From a virus, in IMG/VR virus record IMGVR_UViG_3300017765_000045, positions 1-25,831 of that record: a stretch of DNA of 25,831 nucleotides; one strand, given 5' to 3'. A program made the position numbers and the translations under genes. This document shows, one piece after another, positions 1 to 14,416 of the stretch. The notes beneath the pieces are model-generated. The model was not told the origin of the DNA. It ran no database searches and saw nothing but the letters and a program-made list of their open reading frames with translations. The first letter of the stretch is position 1. Every line of letters begins with the position of its first letter.

Positions 1-3000
1 GTGTAACCGTCAAACACAGACATGTCTAGCGTATTGTTCTGCATGTATGACTGTATTATTTTACCAGCTACTTCTTCTTTAGGTATAGCGTGCTCGTATT
101 GAAACTCTTTACCTAGCTGATCAAGTCCAAGCTTAGCGGCTAGCGCATTAAAGTTTTTAGGTACTCTAGACAAGTAAGCAGCTCTTCTTAATGGCGCATC
201 CATAGACGATCCTAATGACATCACTAGCAAACCAAAATCAGCTGCATCAAAGCTATCGTCTGATTGAACTCTAGCCCAAGCGTCGTCTAATAATCTTTTT
301 ACTTCTTGTCTGGCTTCTAAAGATTTTTGTTTTCTTGTTCTAAATATATCAGCTAAGCTTTTGCTTTTTAACGAAGTAAAAAATCCTTTTGTAGATTCGG
401 CAGGCATTTCAACAACTAGTCTAACACTAGAGCCATCAGGCTTATTTAACATGTATGTGCCTTGCTTTGGAGATGTAACTTCAAACCTAGGTAAAAGACC
501 TTGGTTTACTAACGCTAAAAAATCTGCTTTACCAGTTGTAACTTGTTGTCTGTTTTCTCTAGCTATTTTTTTACCTTTTTTATCTAGCTTAAAGTCACCA
601 ATGTTTTTACCTTTAGGTAGCTTGTCTCCCTTCTTATATCGCTTCCACTTGCCACCGTTTTCTCCTTCCCAGTTTGGTGTATCAATTATTTCACCGCCAG
701 CTTTTGTAACCGTTTTACTACCGTCACCTATTTTAGAAGCACCAGCATACATAGGCATTAGTTGACTAATAACTCTTGTAGCAGCTTCTTCAGGACTTGT
801 TTCTTCGGCTAGCTTAGCTGTAGTGTTAACTAAATGAGATCTTTGTTTATTAATACCTTCAGTTTCCTTAGCTCTGTTACCAGGATTTACGGGTTTTCCG
901 TTTTCATCTTTAGGCATTATATCCATTAAGTTTTTCTTAATGCCTTTGTTGAAGTTGTTATTAAAGAACGCATCAATAAAAAAGTCTTTAACATCTTTAC
1001 CTGTAAACTCAGCAAAATTACCAAGGTCTTTTAGACTTTCGTTTACTGTATTAAAATCTTTTACAAGAGATTTAACTTCGTTTTTTATAGAGTTAATAGT
1101 TCTACTTGGAAGCGTAGACTCTGAGTATACATTGTTAAAAACGTTATCGATGCTAGCGTCACTCATGTCTGTTGTTGGTAGCGTTGCAAATACTTGTTCT
1201 ATCCTATCGTTTCTACCTTCAGCAGAGTCTTTGTTGAAAGCCATTAAACCTTTACCGTCGCCCAGTCTAGCTCTTGCTGCGTCTGAAAAAGTTCCTTCTG
1301 ATAAAGACTTTATTCTTAATTGTTGATTAGCTTCTAGCTGAGCCATTTGAACTATAAAAGCTCTAATAGCACCATCGCCGCTAGTTCCGCCTCTGTCAGA
1401 TCCATCAGGGTTCATGTTGAATAAAGCTAAAAACTCTTCTTTAGCTATGTCAGTTCTCTTGTCTTGAGCTTTCTTTTGGCCTAACTTTTTAGAGGCGCCC
1501 TCTGCTACTTTAAGTCTAGCGCCTTCAGCATATAAATCTCCAAGCTTAGTATTAGCAGCTCCAGTAGCCTCGCCGCTTCTAGTTTGACCTTCTGCTAGTA
1601 TACCTATCAAACCTTGATTTAAGTTACCATTAGCATCTATAGCTCTATCAAATATTTCTAGTTGAGCTTGTTTTCTTTGCTTAGCATTTAAGTCTTGGTT
1701 GGCTAGTATTCTTTTTGCATCAACACCGAAGTGTTTTGCTACAGCATCTAACACACCATACAAAGGGCCTGTTGGTGTAACGTCAGCTTCTTTTGTAGGA
1801 TTAAATAATTTTATATTACCTTTTTTGTCTAATACTAGCTCGCCTGTTTTCTTGTCTACTCTTGTTATTTTCTTAGCGCTGTTTAAAAACTGCTTTACAC
1901 CTTTGTACGTTAAGTTTTCTATTGATACGTCAGCGTCATCTAAGGCTTTGTCTATCGCGTTATTAGTTGTTTCGTTAAACTCGAATACCTCTCTAGCTTT
2001 TAACTCGTTTACAACCTCTCTAACTGCTTCTTTTCTACCAATAGATAGATCCTGCTCGTCTAGTTGTTCTAGCAAAGAATCTCTTTCACCTTGCATTAAG
2101 TCGCTAACAGTAGATCCACTGTCGCCAACCTCTCTGTCTAGTGATGTAGTGTCGGCTTGTTGCTCTGCTTTGTACTGATTTATTACGTCACCTTTAGCCC
2201 TGTATATAATCGACATACCAGCGCCGCCAGATACACCTGTTAGCCAACCAAACAAACTATTGTTTTTGTCTAGGTTGAAGTTTGTTAAAAATCTTCTACC
2301 TAACTCTTCTTTTACTTTTCTAGTAAACTCACGCAAAGCTTCAGGCGGTAGACCTCTTTTCGTCATGTCATTTTGAACCAAAGCGTCTAAAGCTCTACCT
2401 TCTACTATAGCAAAGTAAGCGTCTGTGTAATCAGGAGTAGCTGCAAAAGCGTCTTGACTTACGTGTTTAGGGCTGCCATCTTCGTTCTGTACAAACTTAT
2501 CAAATGTCTGCTTCAAGTCTGGATCACTCTTAATGTTGGCATCTAAAGACTTAGAGTAAGCTCTTTCAGCTCTAGCTTCTTCTTGTTGTTGTGGTGTTTT
2601 AGCTTGCTCAACAATTAGTCCACCAGCTCCTTTAGCCATCATTCTAGTAATAGCAGCATTAGGCTTATTGTTCTTTATAGAAGTATGCATATCCTTCATA
2701 AAGTTTCTAACGTCTTGATCTGTATCAAACTTTATATCTCTACCTAAATAGTTTTGTGAAAACTGTCTAAAAAAATCTTTAAGCTTCTGTAGCGTAGAGT
2801 CGTTGAACTCTATATCCCCATCAGCAAACATCTCAGAAGCTATAGTTAGTATTTCTTCACCTCTTCTATCAGCTTTATAACCACTTATTCTTTTGTTAAA
2901 CAAGGCTGCTTTGCCAGTTTTAAACGTAACACCATCGCCACTTAACATATCTATAACTCTGTCGCCTAAAGCTGTTCTAATACTTGGGTCGTTTTTCAAA

Positions 3001-6000
3001 GTGTTATACAACACTGCGTGAACAAACTCGTGGGCTTGTGTGTTAAACTTACCGTTTTCACCAATAGCTTCTGGGTTTAATTCTATTTGAAAACCTGTTA
3101 GCTTCATGTTTTTACCTTCACCAGTAAACGTAGGCGTCATGCCTCCATAAACCTTAGTGTTGTTTAGCATTTCTAAAGCGGACGAACCCTGGTCAGATCC
3201 TTCTTCAGCTTGCTTTAAAATTTCTTTAGCTTCAGCTATGTCTTCAGGTGTAGAGTTAGGATCGTTTATTACATCATTAGCAGCTTCTTTAAGTCCATCT
3301 TGAAACATAGAAAACTCTTCTACAGACTGCATGCTTCGACCAAACTCATCTTGAGAAAGATTTTCTTGCATTTCCTTATTACTAACCTCTTTAACAGAGA
3401 TATTTAAAGGACTTCCTAACTTTTTAAGCTGAGCATTTGTTTTATCTATTAAAAGCTGTTGTTGCTTTTGGTGCTTTTTAACATCAGAAGGAGGATACTT
3501 ATCTATTATATCTTGTCTAGATTTTTCGTTTTTCTTATATCTTTCGTTAAGTCTATCAAGATCTCTTTGTTTAACATCGTCTGGCGTAGTTTTATCGTTT
3601 ACTATCCTGTTATATTCTGCCTGTAGTTTAGAGTTATTTTTATTTAGCTTCAACAGTTGAGACTTTTCAGAGTCGCTAAGCATATCAACTCTGTTAGCAT
3701 CTATTTCTATAAGCTCTTTATTTTTATGTAGTATATCGCCTACCTCAGACTGTAAGTCCGCTACCTCTTCTTTAGATAAACTGTTTTTACCTTCGTGTAG
3801 CTGTCTTTTTATTTCTTGTAGTCTTTGGTTGTTAGCTGCCATAGCATCGCTAGCAGAAACAGATTTAAAAGGAGCCATCATGTGTTTGAATAACACCGGC
3901 GATTTAATGCTACCAGATATAGCTACACCAGAGACGAAAGACTCTGCAACATCATCAAATATAGTTACGCCTTCTTTGCCAGAAGCCATATCAAATAAGT
4001 TACCGCTCATAGTGGCAAGACTTTCAGATCCACCTTCTTCAATAAAGTCTTTACCCGTAGCTAGTAGAGATCTTTTGTTAAACACGTTTTGTCTAAGGTA
4101 TCTAGACGCGCCTTCAATACCAGCTTCTCTAGCCGTTGCGACAGTTCCTCTAAGTGCTCCTTTTACATATTTAATTTGGCCAAACGTAACTCTTTCTGAT
4201 AATCCTTCAGCCGTACCACTAAGCATTGAATTTGTCCACATGTTCCAAAACCCGTAGTCCGTTCCTTCAGCGCCGTCTGTGTCTTTGTAAAGAGATCGCT
4301 CTTGCTCTAGTTGATCAAACTTTTGTCCAGCAGCAGAGCCTCCCATCATTACTAAACCAGCTGTACCTCCAGTTAAAGCCATAGCTGTAAGCTGAGGTAG
4401 CTGACCACCTAGCATTGTCACAAACCACTCACCTGCGTCTGAAGAGTTTTGTATATCTCCAAAAGCTACTGGATCTTGAACTTTTTGTCTAAAGTTAGTT
4501 TGCCACTCTGATAAAACTTTTTTACCTTGTTCTCTAGCTGTTGGTGTTACTGGGTCGTTGTCCCAGTCTATACTGTCTGGAGAAGTTATTAATTTTCCAG
4601 CATTAATAAATGTTTTTATATATAGGTCAGTTATTATACCTTCTTCAATAGCCCAGTCAGATATTTCTCCAAATGGATTAACCATGTAAGCAACTTGATT
4701 TAAACCTTTTATCATATCTACAGCACCCATGAAAGCAGCGTTACCTGCTTGCGTTCCAAGTTGATGGTTCTTTTCGATAAGGGTGGAGTACATATCTAGT
4801 TGGCCTTGGTCCAAGTTAATCTCCTGCATTTGCCTATACGCTGAGCTCATAGCTTCTGATATATTTTTATTATCAGATATGTATGTATTATATTTATCTA
4901 CATTACTTTGGTACTCATCTTTTAGTTTTTGTATTTCAGTATTTGCAGCATCAACCTCTTCTTCTGTTTTATATTCTTTGCTTTGTATTTCTTCTATTTT
5001 TTTTCTAATAGGAGCTGGATCAATCTTAGATTTTAAAGCTTCAGCGTCTTTTATACTATTAGAAAAAGCTTCGTTAAGCCTATCTATTCTTGAAACAACC
5101 TCTTGTTCTTGCTTGCTTAATGTTGCTAGATGATTTTCTGTTTGATCTTCAAATAATTCTTGAGTTTCAGCCTGTCTAAACCAACCACCTCCAAGATCCT
5201 CTATGTTTTGACTAATGTTTTTCTTTAGTGTTTGTTGGTTTTTTTGAGTTGTTAGTGTTGAATTAGCTAGCTCATTTACTTCCTCATCATCATCACCTAT
5301 ACTATTGTATATATCTTTTAAGTTAACTATTTCTCCATTAGGTGCAGTGCCTTTTTGAAGATCTTTATTTATAAAGTCAAGATTGTGGTTAGCTTTTAAA
5401 AACTTATTTAAGTCTTCTCCTTTGAACCCCATAGCTTCAGCATATCTTTCTTTAGCTATTCTAATTCTAGCGTTCGTATCTGAAAAGCCAATCAAACCGT
5501 TGTTTTGTTTTTCTAGTTCTTCTTTTAGCTTGCTAGGTCTCTTTAAATTTAGCCTTGCGTATTCTTTGTCAGCAAACGAGTTTATTAAAAGATCTCTATT
5601 TTGAAACTGTCTTTCTTTTGCAGGCACTTTCGATAGCATCTCATCAGCTTTTCTCTCTGCTTCTAATATTATTTGTTTTTCTTGCTCTTCCTCTTCGCTA
5701 GTTATGTTTTCAACATCAGCTTTTAATACTTTGTTTTGCTGTAGCTCTGTTTTAGCGTTTTGTTTGTTTTCTGCTTTTTGATTATTAGTTACACGTGTAG
5801 TTTCCGCGTTACCCTCTGCAGCTGTGTTACCTCCTCTAGTAGCGTGTTTTTTCATAAACTCGTCAACTTCACTCGCAACCCTTTTGTCCTTCTTGTTTGA
5901 CCAGCCGTCTACATCAAAAGTCATGCTAGCTCCGTTCAAGGCTGTAACAGTTATTGAGTCGCTAGTGCTACTCGGGCTGCTAAAACTAAAGCCATACTCA

Positions 6001-6647
6001 GAATAATCTGTTACAAATCTATCTAAAGATGATTCGCCAAAACCAAAAAACCAACCGTTATCATCTGTGCCTATTAGCTCTTGTGTAACAGTAGGCATGT
6101 CGTTGCTAGCCCACTCGTTATCTTTAATTCTTTTTTCTTCAAGAATCTTAGACATGTCATCGTCGACTTTTTGAGGTTTTCCATCTTCGCCAGGTATAGT
6201 CCAACCTAGCTTGTGGTCGTATTGATAACCTTCTGGATCTATTATAGACTCGTTGTTTTCTGTTCTAGTCTTATTTAACTCTTGTATTTTCTTTAAATGA
6301 GGGTTTTGTTTTTCAAACTCAGCCTGCTCTTCTAGTATAGCTTGAGTTTCTTCATCTACGTTCGACGCCGAAGAACCATCTTCCGAGGTGGATGCCGTAC
6401 CGTCTTCCGGCACAGCGGCATCCGTCTGTGTCTCGGCTTTTTTTGGTGCATACTCTGGAAAAAGTTCTGGAAAAGCTTTGTTAACTTTTTCGTAGTTAAA
6501 TTTATTGTTAACAGCGGTAGTTACGTAATCTTTTATAACACTCGTGTCTACACCTTCTAGCTCTGGAAAAGCAGCTAAAACTTTATCGTAATCGTAGTCG
6601 TTAGCTACAGATGTTGTAACTAAATCTTTTAGTATTTGTTGATCCAT
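1..6647 (-). CDS. Giant internal virion protein with zinc-metallopeptidase motif (3' end outside the window)
   Basis: Reading frame of at least 2215 codons, open from ATG at 6647 to the left edge with no stop. Residues 7-30 and 39-62 form two tandem repeats (core DxVTTxVxN...AFPEL). A GC-rich Thr/Ser/Asp/Glu linker follows (about 71-96). Long charged coiled-coil regions occupy about 270-700 and 930-1085. A Gly/Met-rich hydrophobic stretch lies at about 742-773 (FVTMLGGQLPQLTAMALTGG). Residues 857-915 have a patterned block (EEGGSESLATMSGNLFDM, IFDDVAESFVSGVAISG) that I associate with large phage internal proteins. Residues 1206-1210 are HEFVH, preceded by a beta strand (FQIELNPE), with Glu1264/1265 and Glu1272 in EEILTIASEMF as candidate third ligands, so a zincin-like peptidase is likely. 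The rest, including YEHAIP near the visible end, is unassigned. It is last of a three-gene ejection block; a delivered cargo protein is inferred. Confidence 0.82.
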   Translation of the reverse strand, partial: MDQQILKDLVTTSVANDYDYDKVLAAFPELEGVDTSVIKDYVTTAVNNKFNYEKVNKAFPELFPEYAPKKAETQTDAAVPEDGTASTSEDGSSASNVDEETQAILEEQAEFEKQNPHLKKIQELNKTRTENNESIIDPEGYQYDHKLGWTIPGEDGKPQKVDDDMSKILEEKRIKDNEWASNDMPTVTQELIGTDDNGWFFGFGESSLDRFVTDYSEYGFSFSSPSSTSDSITVTALNGASMTFDVDGWSNKKDKRVASEVDEFMKKHATRGGNTAAEGNAETTRVTNNQKAENKQNAKTELQQNKVLKADVENITSEEEEQEKQIILEAERKADEMLSKVPAKERQFQNRDLLINSFADKEYARLNLKRPSKLKEELEKQNNGLIGFSDTNARIRIAKERYAEAMGFKGEDLNKFLKANHNLDFINKDLQKGTAPNGEIVNLKDIYNSIGDDDEEVNELANSTLTTQKNQQTLKKNISQNIEDLGGGWFRQAETQELFEDQTENHLATLSKQEQEVVSRIDRLNEAFSNSIKDAEALKSKIDPAPIRKKIEEIQSKEYKTEEEVDAANTEIQKLKDEYQSNVDKYNTYISDNKNISEAMSSAYRQMQEINLDQGQLDMYSTLIEKNHQLGTQAGNAAFMGAVDMIKGLNQVAYMVNPFGEISDWAIEEGIITDLYIKTFINAGKLITSPDSIDWDNDPVTPTAREQGKKVLSEWQTNFRQKVQDPVAFGDIQNSSDAGEWFVTMLGGQLPQLTAMALTGGTAGLVMMGGSAAGQKFDQLEQERSLYKDTDGAEGTDYGFWNMWTNSMLSGTAEGLSERVTFGQIKYVKGALRGTVATAREAGIEGASRYLRQNVFNKRSLLATGKDFIEEGGSESLATMSGNLFDMASGKEGVTIFDDVAESFVSGVAISGSIKSPVLFKHMMAPFKSVSASDAMAANNQRLQEIKRQLHEGKNSLSKEEVADLQSEVGDILHKNKELIEIDANRVDMLSDSEKSQLLKLNKNNSKLQAEYNRIVNDKTTPDDVKQRDLDRLNERYKKNEKSRQDIIDKYPPSDVKKHQKQQQLLIDKTNAQLKKLGSPLNISVKEVSNKEMQENLSQDEFGRSMQSVEEFSMFQDGLKEAANDVINDPNSTPEDIAEAKEILKQAEEGSDQGSSALEMLNNTKVYGGMTPTFTGEGKNMKLTGFQIELNPEAIGENGKFNTQAHEFVHAVLYNTLKNDPSIRTALGDRVIDMLSGDGVTFKTGKAALFNKRISGYKADRRGEEILTIASEMFADGDIEFNDSTLQKLKDFFRQFSQNYLGRDIKFDTDQDVRNFMKDMHTSIKNNKPNAAITRMMAKGAGGLIVEQAKTPQQQEEARAERAYSKSLDANIKSDPDLKQTFDKFVQNEDGSPKHVSQDAFAATPDYTDAYFAIVEGRALDALVQNDMTKRGLPPEALREFTRKVKEELGRRFLTNFNLDKNNSLFGWLTGVSGGAGMSIIYRAKGDVINQYKAEQQADTTSLDREVGDSGSTVSDLMQGERDSLLEQLDEQDLSIGRKEAVREVVNELKAREVFEFNETTNNAIDKALDDADVSIENLTYKGVKQFLNSAKKITRVDKKTGELVLDKKGNIKLFNPTKEADVTPTGPLYGVLDAVAKHFGVDAKRILANQDLNAKQRKQAQLEIFDRAIDANGNLNQGLIGILAEGQTRSGEATGAANTKLGDLYAEGARLKVAEGASKKLGQKKAQDKRTDIAKEEFLALFNMNPDGSDRGGTSGDGAIRAFIVQMAQLEANQQLRIKSLSEGTFSDAARARLGDGKGLMAFNKDSAEGRNDRIEQVFATLPTTDMSDASIDNVFNNVYSESTLPSRTINSIKNEVKSLVKDFNTVNESLKDLGNFAEFTGKDVKDFFIDAFFNNNFNKGIKKNLMDIMPKDENGKPVNPGNRAKETEGINKQRSHLVNTTAKLAEETSPEEAATRVISQLMPMYAGASKIGDGSKTVTKAGGEIIDTPNWEGENGGKWKRYKKGDKLPKGKNIGDFKLDKKGKKIARENRQQVTTGKADFLALVNQGLLPRFEVTSPKQGTYMLNKPDGSSVRLVVEMPAESTKGFFTSLKSKSLADIFRTRKQKSLEARQEVKRLLDDAWARVQSDDSFDAADFGLLVMSLGSSMDAPLRRAAYLSRVPKNFNALAAKLGLDQLGKEFQYEHAIPKEEVAGKIIQSYMQNNTLDMSVFDGY
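3018..3032 (-). other. HEFVH metallopeptidase motif in the giant gene
   Basis: In-frame codons CAC GAG TTT GTT CAC encode H-E-F-V-H, residues 1206-1210 of the giant protein. It sits in the context NTQAHEFVHAVLYNT after a beta strand, the usual zincin active-site helix setting. Confidence 0.8.
6359..6438 (-). other. GC-rich linker segment in the giant gene
   Basis: About 60% G+C by hand count, against a clearly AT-rich surround. It encodes a Ser/Thr/Asp/Glu/Ala linker containing PEDGTAST and SEDGSSAS, directly after the two N-terminal repeats. Confidence 0.6.
6462..6629 (-). repeat. Two-copy protein-level tandem repeat in the giant gene
   Basis: Copies at 6558-6629 and 6462-6533 each encode 24 residues, spaced 32 residues apart. 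They share K-D-[LY]-V-T-T-[SA]-V at the start and K-V-x-x-A-F-P-E-L at the end. The DNA copies use different codons, so the duplication is old and kept at the protein level. Confidence 0.85.
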
Positions 6648-9137: not shown

Positions 9138-9527
9138 TTAATTGCTACTTTCAAAAGTATCAACAGTGATATTGAATAACTCTGCAAAGTTGTTAGAGTT
9201 GTTCTTAAATCTAAACATACCGTAGTAACCTAACATCGATCCATATTCATGGCAGTTATCTTTGCTAAACAACACAAATAAAACCTCAGGTCTTTCTGGA
9301 CTAGGTTTAGGTGTAGGTAATTGATTAACATATAAGTTTGTAGTAACTGTTATAGTATTATTAATTCTATCTATAGCTGTTATTTCTCCTAACTGAGTTA
9401 TATCTTGCTGATTAACGTTGAAGCCGCTATTTGGTACAGCAACCACAGCGTAAGCAATATCACCTACAGATACAGAGTCTTGTATAGTATATTCAAATTG
9501 TAATGTTAGTGTAAATGGAGGAGGCAT
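9138..9527 (-). CDS. Small beta-rich virion-region protein, 129 aa
   Basis: Unrecognised. The translation is dominated by beta-forming segments such as PFTLTLQFEYTIQD and ITAIDRINNTITVTTNLYVNQ. A short Pro-rich patch (QLPTPKPSPERP) follows, then a Cys-containing region with YGSMLGYYGMFRFKNNSNNFAEL. There is no signal peptide or membrane helix. It is coupled to the 450-aa gene by TAATATG and followed after 30 bases by the cupin gene, so it is part of the same late operon. A small tail or baseplate-like component is plausible, but unproven. Confidence 0.65.
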   Translation of the reverse strand: MPPPFTLTLQFEYTIQDSVSVGDIAYAVVAVPNSGFNVNQQDITQLGEITAIDRINNTITVTTNLYVNQLPTPKPSPERPEVLFVLFSKDNCHEYGSMLGYYGMFRFKNNSNNFAELFNITVDTFESSN

Positions 9528-10882: not shown

Positions 10883-13800
10883 TTAATCCCAATTTTGTCC
10901 TGTTATGCTAGAGCTAAAGTCTTTTACTACAGCTCTTACTGGTTGTGGAGCCTGCTCTCCAGGGTTGCTATGTGTTATAGTAGCTTCACCTATACCTTGT
11001 ACAGTAAACTCTTTTTCGTCTAGGTTATTAAAATCTGTGCAAGCTCCTCTTATATAATTGAACCATTTACCTTCTTTGTCTAAAAACTCTGGAACTTTAC
11101 CATCTTGAAGGTCAGTGTTGGCGTACTCAACGTACCAACCTTCTTTTGAATTTAAGTTATAATATTGATCATCATCTACATGCCTATTTATTCTAGCTTG
11201 TGTGCCTTCGTACTTTATAGTTTGAAAGTTTTTAACAGAGCTAGGAGCATCGTTAAATAACACTTCAACATAGGAGGGAATAAATGAACTACCATAAAAA
11301 GTATTTCTACTATTGTTTATGTGGTGCTTCCATATTGAGCCATTATCAAAAGTGTAATAATCATTATTAACGCCTACACCTGTTTCAGGGTGAAAACTTT
11401 TAAAGCTAGTCCAACCTTTAACCTGCTCGTTATATGTTACTGTTGTATCTGGAAAATTACTAGCTAAAAAACCGTTAGGATAACCTTTTCGCTGCGTAGG
11501 CTTTTCATACATTGTTAAATTATAGTTATCTTTTCTTTGATCAAAAGTACCTATAAGCCTAAAGTTTTTTATAGTATTAAATGTATCTGTAAAGTAATCT
11601 TTCATACCATAGTCTGATATAGGTGTCATACCGTCTTTTGATAGTCTAAGCACCGCGCCTCTCTGCGTATCAGTAAAGTAACACCTGTATTTATCTGCCG
11701 CAAAAGATTCAGGGTTAGTAGATATACCGTAGTCTCCAGCAAAAGCTATAGCTTGACCAAGGACTCTATTAGCAGCTGTAAGTTGAGCGTTACCGCCAGA
11801 TTCAAACAAAGCATCTTTGTCAGATAAAACTTTTAATACTTTATCTTCACAGAAAGTTACTATGTCAGTGTCTCTTGTAAATAGCTTCTGTATGCTTCCG
11901 TTATCAGGATCAAGATCTTTTGTTATTGGCTCAGCCTGTATAAACTGATTAAGTCTATTAACGCCAGACAGACTATTGAATATACCTGAAAATATAAAGC
12001 TTTGCGATCTTCTTTCTTCTTTATACTGCTCTGCTATAGTAGTCGATGCTTTAACGCCGTTTTGTATTGTTGGTTGATTAAAGTCATCTCTAATTCTATC
12101 TGACTCTATACCATTACCAAAAGAGTAGCAGTTGTGCCAAGGTAGTGTTATAGAGTTCCAAGAGGCATGGAACCTAGGGTTAACTCTTATAGTAGATCCA
12201 ACCGAAGCTTGTGTTGCAACTAGTGTTACCTCACCACCATACCCGTCTTCAAAAAGAAGTGTATCTCCAGACGCAACCGCTTGTGCGCCTTGTACTTCTA
12301 CCTCAACAAATCCTCCTCCAGCGTATTCCCCTCTCATTGCAGTAACTAATGCTGGCTGTATGGAAACATTGTCTATAGCTATTAAAGAACCAAAGTTAGG
12401 TAAGATTGCGGTCTCTGCGTTAGTCTCATCTATAACAATAGGGTACGCTCTGCTTATCTCGTAGTATATATCTAAGCCAATATCTTCTTTAGGTTTTGTT
12501 TCCCAAACAGCTGGGTTTTCACTTGAAAAACCTTCACCATCATCGAAAGGACCCATTATCTGTAAGTTGGTAGTGCTGCTACCATCGTGATTAGCGTTTC
12601 TTCTAGCGTTGTATATAGTTCTGTCTGCTACTATAGTCCACTTTTGTCTTCTGTTCCAAGACTCCCAATAGTCGCTGTCACCTAGGTGTAAATCACTTTT
12701 CTGAGCGTTAGTTATTCCCCAATGGCTGTATGAAGTTACTGTCTCATGTATTATCTGATCTGGATCATCTTGCCACCTCCATTTACAACCTGGTAAAAGT
12801 AAAAGTCTCATGAACTCATATTCGTCTGTATTACTACCTTTTCTTAAATGAACAGGGTTCATAAAATCCATTCTTGCAGGAGTTAAATCATCTTTCCAGT
12901 CTCCCGTTGGGCCAAACTCGTCATCTGGACCTATAAATCCGCCTGTAACAGATATATCCATTCTGCTACCCCATATACCCTTAGATCCGTTTTGATAACC
13001 GTTGGCACTACCGTTCCAAGGTGCTATTTCTAAAGCGCCGTTTGGACCTCCTGCCAGCGTAATTTGTTGATCAGGAGCGGTGTGCCAATCTTCAAAGTCT
13101 TGAGGGTTGAGACCGTTTTCTATAGTATGCGGGTCATGAGCCCAGCTCAAAGCCCAAGCATCATCAATAAATAGCGTAGCTTGACCACCTCTTGTAAAGT
13201 AATTGTTCCAAAACTGAAAAGCTCTGTTGTCGTTAATAAAGTCTGCTGCCGCAAATCCAGCTTGAGCTAGCGCATAAATTGGAAGAAGTAAAAGCTCCCA
13301 CCACTGTGGAGCGCCTCCAGCGTCAACAGATCCTGCTGTACCCTTGTATATACCCCAGTCACCACCGTTAGATGCTGTGAAAAAATCTCCTAGCGGAGCA
13401 TTTTGGTTTTGCGCAAAATCGTCTACAGTATTATTAACGTTATTAGGTTGGTTAGACACCTCTAACAAGTTGTTTGGTATTGGTAAAGTGGCGTTAGTGC
13501 TGTCTCCCCAAGTGTAGCTAGAGTTGTATGGGTGAACATGATTTAATCCAGCTATTGATCTAACGTAGCCGTTATTTGTGTTACCAAATATAGAAAAAGG
13601 AAAGCTTCCTCCACCATACCCAGCGCCTTGGTTATCTGTGTTGAGAACACCACCGCTTCCGTTAGTATGCGAGTCGTATGTGTGAAGATAACGCATGCCG
13701 TACGCTGTAACGACAACAAGGTTATCATCGTTTAAAACCATAATAAAGTTTTCTAACGTAGTATCTTTAAAAACTTTAACAAAGAATTTACCGTCAAACT

Positions 13801-14416
13801 CTGGCTTATCAATATACTCGTTGCGTACGATTTGTAATTGTAATCCAGGATTTCTATTTGCCCAGCTTGTGCCACAGACAGATCCAACCTCAGGTCCTAA
13901 TCGTTCTTCTAAATTTATTCTATACCCGTCATTTCCAGCACCACCAAAGAAGTTACCTAGCTCTATACTAATTATATCGTAATACTGAGTGGCTAAACCT
14001 GTTATAGTTCTAAACCTAGCAGAGCACTCTGACGCTATAGCAGTTATAGGATTATTAGAGGTAGTATCAAAAGCTGTATTAAACTGATTTAGTCTTACGT
14101 AAAAAAACACTTCGTTTTGTCCCGGAAAGCCTATACCAGTACCTGTTTGTCCAAAAAAGTCGTCTAAAGTAGTTGTTCCAGCGGTAGTGGTAGATCCATT
14201 TAACAAGGTTCCTTGAACTTTTCTATCAAGCTTTATATCTTGAGGAGCTTCGTTTTCAATGGCTAGTATCTTGTATCTAGCAGGCTCTACTATAGGGGTT
14301 GGCCCATCGTGCTCTTTCTTTAATTCTAAAAATGTTTCTTCATCTACTTTGTTTCTATCTGATGAAGGAAAAGAAAGCCACAGGTTACCATCTTCAGCAT
14401 TGTACCAGCGGTCCAT
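10883..14416 (-). CDS. Tail nozzle/stabilisation protein, C-terminal part (frameshifted)
   Basis: Frame of 1177 aa counted from an internal Met; coding actually begins at 14599, giving 1238 residues of the continuous protein. It is Trp-, Asn- and Gly-rich and beta-rich, with many aromatic loops (WGSRMDISVTGG, RQKWTIVADRTIYN). The second half contains nozzle-type segments: ERRSQSFIFSGIFNSLSGVN, SFAADKYRCYFTDTQRGAVL and NVNDYYTFDNGS-like beta repeats, which look like propeller blades of the T7 gp12 / crAss muzzle class. It probably forms the tail tube end and may bind tail fibres. The ATG at 14416 has no leader of its own, being embedded in coding sequence. It ends in a TAATATG junction with the next gene. 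Confidence 0.85.
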   Translation of the reverse strand: MDRWYNAEDGNLWLSFPSSDRNKVDEETFLELKKEHDGPTPIVEPARYKILAIENEAPQDIKLDRKVQGTLLNGSTTTAGTTTLDDFFGQTGTGIGFPGQNEVFFYVRLNQFNTAFDTTSNNPITAIASECSARFRTITGLATQYYDIISIELGNFFGGAGNDGYRINLEERLGPEVGSVCGTSWANRNPGLQLQIVRNEYIDKPEFDGKFFVKVFKDTTLENFIMVLNDDNLVVVTAYGMRYLHTYDSHTNGSGGVLNTDNQGAGYGGGSFPFSIFGNTNNGYVRSIAGLNHVHPYNSSYTWGDSTNATLPIPNNLLEVSNQPNNVNNTVDDFAQNQNAPLGDFFTASNGGDWGIYKGTAGSVDAGGAPQWWELLLLPIYALAQAGFAAADFINDNRAFQFWNNYFTRGGQATLFIDDAWALSWAHDPHTIENGLNPQDFEDWHTAPDQQITLAGGPNGALEIAPWNGSANGYQNGSKGIWGSRMDISVTGGFIGPDDEFGPTGDWKDDLTPARMDFMNPVHLRKGSNTDEYEFMRLLLLPGCKWRWQDDPDQIIHETVTSYSHWGITNAQKSDLHLGDSDYWESWNRRQKWTIVADRTIYNARRNANHDGSSTTNLQIMGPFDDGEGFSSENPAVWETKPKEDIGLDIYYEISRAYPIVIDETNAETAILPNFGSLIAIDNVSIQPALVTAMRGEYAGGGFVEVEVQGAQAVASGDTLLFEDGYGGEVTLVATQASVGSTIRVNPRFHASWNSITLPWHNCYSFGNGIESDRIRDDFNQPTIQNGVKASTTIAEQYKEERRSQSFIFSGIFNSLSGVNRLNQFIQAEPITKDLDPDNGSIQKLFTRDTDIVTFCEDKVLKVLSDKDALFESGGNAQLTAANRVLGQAIAFAGDYGISTNPESFAADKYRCYFTDTQRGAVLRLSKDGMTPISDYGMKDYFTDTFNTIKNFRLIGTFDQRKDNYNLTMYEKPTQRKGYPNGFLASNFPDTTVTYNEQVKGWTSFKSFHPETGVGVNNDYYTFDNGSIWKHHINNSRNTFYGSSFIPSYVEVLFNDAPSSVKNFQTIKYEGTQARINRHVDDDQYYNLNSKEGWYVEYANTDLQDGKVPEFLDKEGKWFNYIRGACTDFNNLDEKEFTVQGIGEATITHSNPGEQAPQPVRAVVKDFSSSITGQNWD

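Follow-up and report, generated by a model that had tools for sequence, protein, structure and literature searches.

A predicted zincin-like metallopeptidase domain inside a giant late-gene protein of a crAss-like, muzzle-bearing podovirus

Background

Metallopeptidases (MPTases) are the commonest domain of the polyvalent proteins of phages, where their role is mostly predicted; self-processing has been proposed for them, among other roles, and the targeting of host proteins is listed as a possible one (Iyer et al. 2017, PMC5512222). In the same account the P1 protein DdrB, which carries a C-terminal MPTase, is processed before packaging, and the virion RNA polymerase (vRNAP) of phage N4 is packaged uncut, the region around its MPTase being reported as required for encapsidation (PMC5512222). 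The crassvirus PhiCrAss001 stores its cargo proteins gp45-gp50 in capsid and tail and ejects them into the host (PMC10172136). Here we analyse a 25.8 kb virus record (IMG/VR IMGVR_UViG_3300017765_000045, positions 1 to 25,831; 'the window' throughout), whose main genes lie together in a single late operon, on the minus strand (-), and whose last late gene encodes a giant protein of the polyvalent, probably ejected-cargo type. A first-pass annotation, made from the letters alone, had placed a zincin MPTase within this protein and had suggested that it could cleave host wall or envelope proteins, process the ejection complex or cut host factors after delivery.

Results

The giant open reading frame (3..6647 (-), ATG at 6647) encodes 2,215 amino acids (aa) and is incomplete at its C-terminus, as the frame exits the left edge of the window; a 92% identical homologue in the related contig L003 extends to at least 2,394 aa. 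Residues 1206-1210 read HEFVH (3018..3032 (-)), as first reported, with H1206 and H1210 as predicted zinc ligands and E1207 as predicted general base. This is the sole HExxH across the six frames of the window, where composition alone would give 0.011 in the giant protein. Related frames were collected by scans of viral contigs, close homologues first and then the large family, the last scan yielding at least 587 confirmed stretches, 80 of which were retained. From these contigs we extracted 106 non-redundant giant frames of 1,077-3,697 aa; four (L018, L069, L076, L115) are N-terminally cut pieces that start downstream of the domain, leaving 102 evaluable. HExxH occurs in 94 of the 102, nearly always exactly once per protein, and lies 831-1,256 residues ahead of a HAD motif in those frames where the latter was found.

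Only four positions, H1206, E1207, H1210 and E1265, are invariant among 76 aligned domains, and they make up the gluzincin set; the same four are the sole invariant ones in a smaller alignment of 23 relatives. The distal glutamate is retained in all 94 HExxH-bearing relatives, a count to be read with the caveat that aligners tend to bring such residues together; it is nevertheless an independent result because the relatives were chosen on HExxH only. Of these 94, 88 also have an acidic residue (E or D) at E1272; further downstream, 69 have D at D1312 and 70 have F at F1316. The full gluzincin-like layout claimed at first pass thus stands. A chance HExxH in a helical protein might be suspected, the motif being short, with no match to a Pfam or NCBIfam zincin model and no zincin in fold searches; the equivalent-site motif in 94 of 102 relatives, together with the invariant distal Glu, leads us to reject it as next to impossible.

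The active site is altered in a minority of relatives. L075 (HEILGH) and L098 (HEMVGH) carry HExxxH variants, L102 (on the same contig as L021) reads HDILH, L038 retains the domain (E 3.5e-16) with EELFH at the expected HExxH site, and L073 matches the domain profile (E 7.5e-15) without the motif. From these variants, peptidase activity may be changed or gone in some of the phages. Copies such as L038 and L073 would also fit a fold retained mainly for structure or packaging, with catalysis minor or lost, as would the reported need of the N4 MPTase region for encapsidation. In a domain otherwise so divergent, invariance confined to the four catalytic and ligand positions would be difficult to account for if there were neither catalysis nor at least metal binding, and we consider a chiefly structural role quite improbable. 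HExxH is absent from L027, L028 and Cellulophaga phage phi38:1 gp101; the last of these and the giant protein of Maribacter phage Panino were considered as zincin carriers and set aside, having no such motif.

The domain is placed at residues ~1080-1335 (2643..3410 (-)) from the family alignments, a model of residues 1146-1335 and a profile match to the N4 vRNAP zincin, its upstream limit being drawn by eye. The model of residues 1146-1335, the second of two, was built on the 76-row alignment; confidence for the domain is a mean predicted local distance difference test (pLDDT) of 84 and a predicted template modelling score (pTM) of 0.77. Its order is a helix, two strands, the HExxH helix, further helices, the Glu helix and two more helices; HExxH and the Glu fall on different helices, behind the pair of strands. 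TGFQIELN (residues 1184-1191, 3075..3098 (-)), the strand noticed ahead of the motif, is modelled as strand over residues 1182-1190 in both models; HEFVH lies on a predicted helix (residues 1203-1217). The acidic helix that follows, EEILTIASEMFA, is likewise helical in both (residues 1259-1275, 2823..2873 (-)) and carries E1265 (codon 2853-2855), 55 residues beyond H1210 and the predicted third zinc ligand. The tail (residues 1283-1325, 2673..2801 (-); LQKLKDFFRQFSQNYLG, DVRNFMKDM) is helical in the second model, and its two helices (LQKLKDFFRQF, DVRNFMKD) recur across the family, in keeping with the conserved tail first described.

Comparison with known folds was less productive. In a first fold search the long N-terminal helices dominated and the hits were F-BAR proteins, which is uninformative. 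With the trimmed model, Foldseek against PDB returned nothing significant and no zincin, and a viral structure library gave no zincin either; the leading matches in the latter, suggestive only, were an elemo structural protein (E 0.04, probability 0.96) and two large-protein fragments; an N4-type polymerase from a Vibrio phage also appeared, at probability 0.20. Trimming probably removed the first core strand: the model shows a helix and two long strands before the HExxH helix, and further upstream, outside the modelled residues, a likely first strand can be made out by eye (KINIEIAENQ in a relative, LNISVKEVSN in the window). Pfam, NCBIfam and PDB-sequence searches gave no zincin match, and the PHROG 'metallo-protease' family matched weakly in 2 of 76 relatives. 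The structure prediction proposed at first pass therefore delivered a fairly confident model with the expected helix order and no zincin match in fold libraries; support for the fold comes from motif, helix order and homology, not from a structural match.

That homology was sought, as an independent test, with a profile of the vRNAP zincin built from N4 and 11 relatives, which hhalign aligns with the family at a score of 35.5 (P 2e-4, probability 41-47%), in register over the strands and HExxH. Full-column shuffles of the N4 profile score 11.2 ± 1.8 and those that keep HExxH 26.0 ± 1.9 (maximum 34.4); because none of 120 HExxH-keeping shuffles reaches 35.5, the similarity exceeds HExxH itself, though it is modest. 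The domain thus appears related to the zincin of the N4 vRNAP. As judged from sequence, and taken apart from any question of role, it is very probably a zincin-like metallopeptidase: conservation across a broad family, purifying selection (below), the model and the N4 similarity all bear out a zincin in a giant phage late-gene protein.

For the zincin core, comparison of the window with L003 gives a ratio of non-synonymous to synonymous substitution rates (dN/dS) of 0.106 (34.5 synonymous and 18.5 non-synonymous differences), and the domain is under purifying selection. Synonymous divergence (dS) for the same pair is 0.44 in the core and 0.40 in the whole domain, against 0.07, about six times lower, in both flanks. 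Because the raised divergence starts and stops with the zincin domain (codons ~1101-1325, 2673..3347 (-)), the simplest reading of these sequences is that the region was swapped as a block in this closest pair with the active site kept. A general tendency of the zincin to evolve faster than its flanks was considered and rejected, as it holds in only 26 of 60 close pairs. The same pair shows a second strongly diverged block in the N-terminal part (~5447-5810, codons 280-400) and differs by ~1% in much of the remainder. In L008, L009 and L010 the zincins are 96-97% identical and the following 700 residues 20-46%. The giant protein is modular.

Exchange of this kind, between close phages with near-identical flanks, is as expected under changing host pressure, and it would fit a protease that is injected as an effector and, early in infection, cleaves at least one host protein, such as a defence factor or a transcription factor, instead of its own chain; host-protein targeting is also among the possible roles named by Iyer et al. 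(PMC5512222). This is a serious rival to self-processing. The L008, L009 and L010 zincins, conserved while their neighbours vary, are better fitted by processing of exchangeable neighbours, and there is no known candidate substrate; on balance we consider a host-directed protease unlikely, though the strongest of the alternatives.

Besides the giant frame, which comes last, the late operon encodes a terminase large subunit, a portal, several 'virion structural' PHROGs, a muzzle-type protein and a short tail fibre protein. The muzzle gene (10883..14416 (-)), upstream of the giant frame, matches the crassvirus family PF25729 (crAss_MUZ_C) at E 1.7e-9. The same family was found in six of six related contigs at E <= 1e-3, with four above the cut-off, and in none of 14 control genomes. 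A 129-aa protein (window 9138-9527) and the muzzle match different parts of PHROG 18548, which suggests a split or exchanged muzzle domain. The terminase has its closest named matches in the uncultured podovirus MW202828 (68%), in Flavobacterium elemo phages (50%) and in Cellulophaga phages; a megablast search of phage records with the whole window gave no match. Because of the late operon with its muzzle and these terminase relatives, the window virus is a crAss-like, muzzle-bearing podovirus, a descriptive label that does not imply membership of Crassvirales (phi38:1 itself is filed under Pervagoviridae, without the order Crassvirales). Its hosts, judging from relatives, are probably Bacteroidota. 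Contigs L117, L119, L121-L123 and L125-L127 of this phage family sit in metagenome-assembled genomes named Aliivibrio, Woesearchaeota, Ilumatobacteraceae, Maricaulis and others, placements that most likely reflect faulty binning and not the hosts.

Other parts of the giant protein are also shared. An N-terminal module (residues 498-969, 3741..5156 (-)) is common with phi38:1 gp101 (tblastn E ~1e-8, 23% identity). At the window edge, residues 2185-2189 read EHAIP (81..95 (-)), an HNH-like EHxxP motif whose E-H pair is invariant in 10 aligned relatives and whose reading as a nuclease was made by eye; in relatives the motif (L006 P0005, residues 1402-1407) together with a stretch downstream of it, NYKLIALD...DK, looks HNH nuclease-like by eye. 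The window protein ends soon after EHAIP, and a HAD phosphatase-like part would lie just past the edge (FDFDET at 2331 in L003). In relatives this domain (L006:8092-15327, P0005 residues 1569-1752) follows the zincin by ~830-1,260 residues; its signature (DxDxT, LTAR, K, DD) is invariant in 10 aligned relatives, and the region weakly matches the PHROG 415 polynucleotide kinase (E 5.6e-4). Zincin and HAD in one polypeptide, the latter as seen in relatives, make up the multi-enzyme composition of a polyvalent protein as predicted from sequence. Among the relatives, a 3,859-aa giant protein of MW202828.1 (L035:741-12320) is labelled 'reticulocyte binding/rhoptry protein', probably a misannotation, and has two HExxH (residues 1615, 2500); in Panino a 1,829-aa homologue in the same operon place (L144:11662-17151), without HExxH, is labelled 'tRNA methyltransferase', again probably wrongly. 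A DUF3293 domain (E 1e-12) lies upstream of the zincin in Flavobacterium phage elemoA gp21 (L036:16564-27645, residues 1323-1392).

The linkers carry a recurrent motif. Between zincin and HAD, 65 dereplicated proteins contain 41 copies of [FYM]S[KR][STA], compared with 9.2 ± 2.9 after local shuffling of the sequences; the figure is descriptive and not a clean test because the motif was picked after viewing these sequences. Related control patterns show no comparable enrichment (highest z 2.5). Sites fall just after the zincin, in the mid-region, before HAD and after HAD, with no N-terminal enrichment, and the window's copy just after the zincin is YSKS (residues 1364-1367, 2547..2558 (-)). Relatives with recurrent copies include L008, L009, L010, L063 and L082.

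Discussion

In the reading we favour, the zincin-like MPTase domain sits inside a giant polyvalent-type protein that would be packaged in the particle and then ejected into the host. Once the protein has refolded inside the cell, H1206, H1210 and E1265 would hold zinc and E1207 would activate water; the zincin would then cleave the giant chain in the linkers between its domains and so release the N-terminal module from the enzymatic C-terminal parts (the EHxxP region, the HAD phosphatase-like domain and the conserved C-terminus). We put the probability of this whole reading at roughly 0.5. Its parts differ in strength. Packaging is likely on grounds of homology and synteny: phi38:1 gp101 and elemoA gp21 are annotated as structural (no proteomics report was found for either), and PhiCrAss001 cargo is stored and ejected (PMC10172136), from which both packaging and ejection are inferred. 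The place of the gene in the late operon, downstream of muzzle and tail fibre, counts in the same direction. Self-processing as the main role follows by analogy from the published proposals for P1 DdrB and N4 vRNAP, and here we see about even odds.

Cleavage is placed after ejection because N4, with a profile-related zincin, packages its protein intact. The domain could instead act in maturation, cutting the giant protein as particles assemble, either before it enters the capsid or inside it; such a role was proposed for P1 DdrB, which is reported to be processed before packaging (PMC5512222). Given the uncut N4 vRNAP we regard this as improbable.

Several points weigh against the favoured reading as a whole. 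The trimmed model found no zincin in PDB or the viral structure library, and no Pfam or NCBIfam model matched. N4 vRNAP, the profile-related case, is itself packaged uncut (PMC5512222). Since the phi38:1 and Panino proteins work without HExxH, giant proteins of this architecture can do without the peptidase. The linker motif, too, is present in relatives that lack HExxH; it is for this reason not simply the cleavage site of this zincin, and as a specific zincin target it is not supported. It is conceivable, though doubtful, that the giant protein is an injected polyprotein in which the zincin or a partner protease cuts at [FYM]-S-[KR]-[STA] linkers between exchangeable cargo domains. Were that so, modules could be swapped between phages without a change of protease, and tailed phages would have an equivalent of viral polyprotein processing, at cleavage sites that can be read from the sequence.

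The roles of polyvalent MPTases being mostly predicted, a family this abundant (at least 587 stretches) and unmatched by Pfam is of wider interest. Block exchange of the zincin and recurrent linker motifs lead to concrete predictions on processing sites, and the cultured pair of Flavobacterium phage elemoA and Flavobacterium sp. BAL314 holds an HExxH relative, so that the role is directly testable. Zincins in crAss-like phages were not found in the open-access literature searched: the main text of PMC5512222 does not mention Cellulophaga or Flavobacteria, and PMC10172136 mentions no protease, peptidase or zinc.

Among cultured relatives, phi38:1 gp101 ('structural protein') occupies the same operon place and has the homologous N-terminal module, but has no HExxH anywhere. 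ElemoA gp21 shares a module just upstream of the zincin (window residues 743-1096, E 5e-9) and has its own HEIFH at 1543; it differs in being much longer (3,694 aa), in its DUF3293 match and in a zincin that BLAST by itself does not align with that of the window. The large cargo proteins gp45-gp50 of the muzzle-bearing PhiCrAss001 (PMC10172136) are likened to the giant protein by role, not by homology. As in the C1 (zincin) domain of the Schitoviridae N4 vRNAP (PMC12633501), a zincin-type HExxH lies in a giant virion protein that is ejected in N4 and probably here, whereas family searches recognised no N4-type polymerase in the window protein. With the polyvalent MPTases of Iyer et al. (PMC5512222) the family shares HExxH on one helix and Glu on a later one with a variable stretch between, a place inside giant multi-domain phage late-gene proteins, and HExxxH variants; it differs in having no Pfam or NCBIfam match and in its partner domains, HAD phosphatase-like and EHxxP. 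The family is therefore a new and abundant branch in crAss-like phages, new with respect to Pfam-A, NCBIfam and the open literature and not by placement among the 12 clades of Iyer et al., of a kind that is already known: the zincin-like MPTase of polyvalent proteins, N4 vRNAP included.

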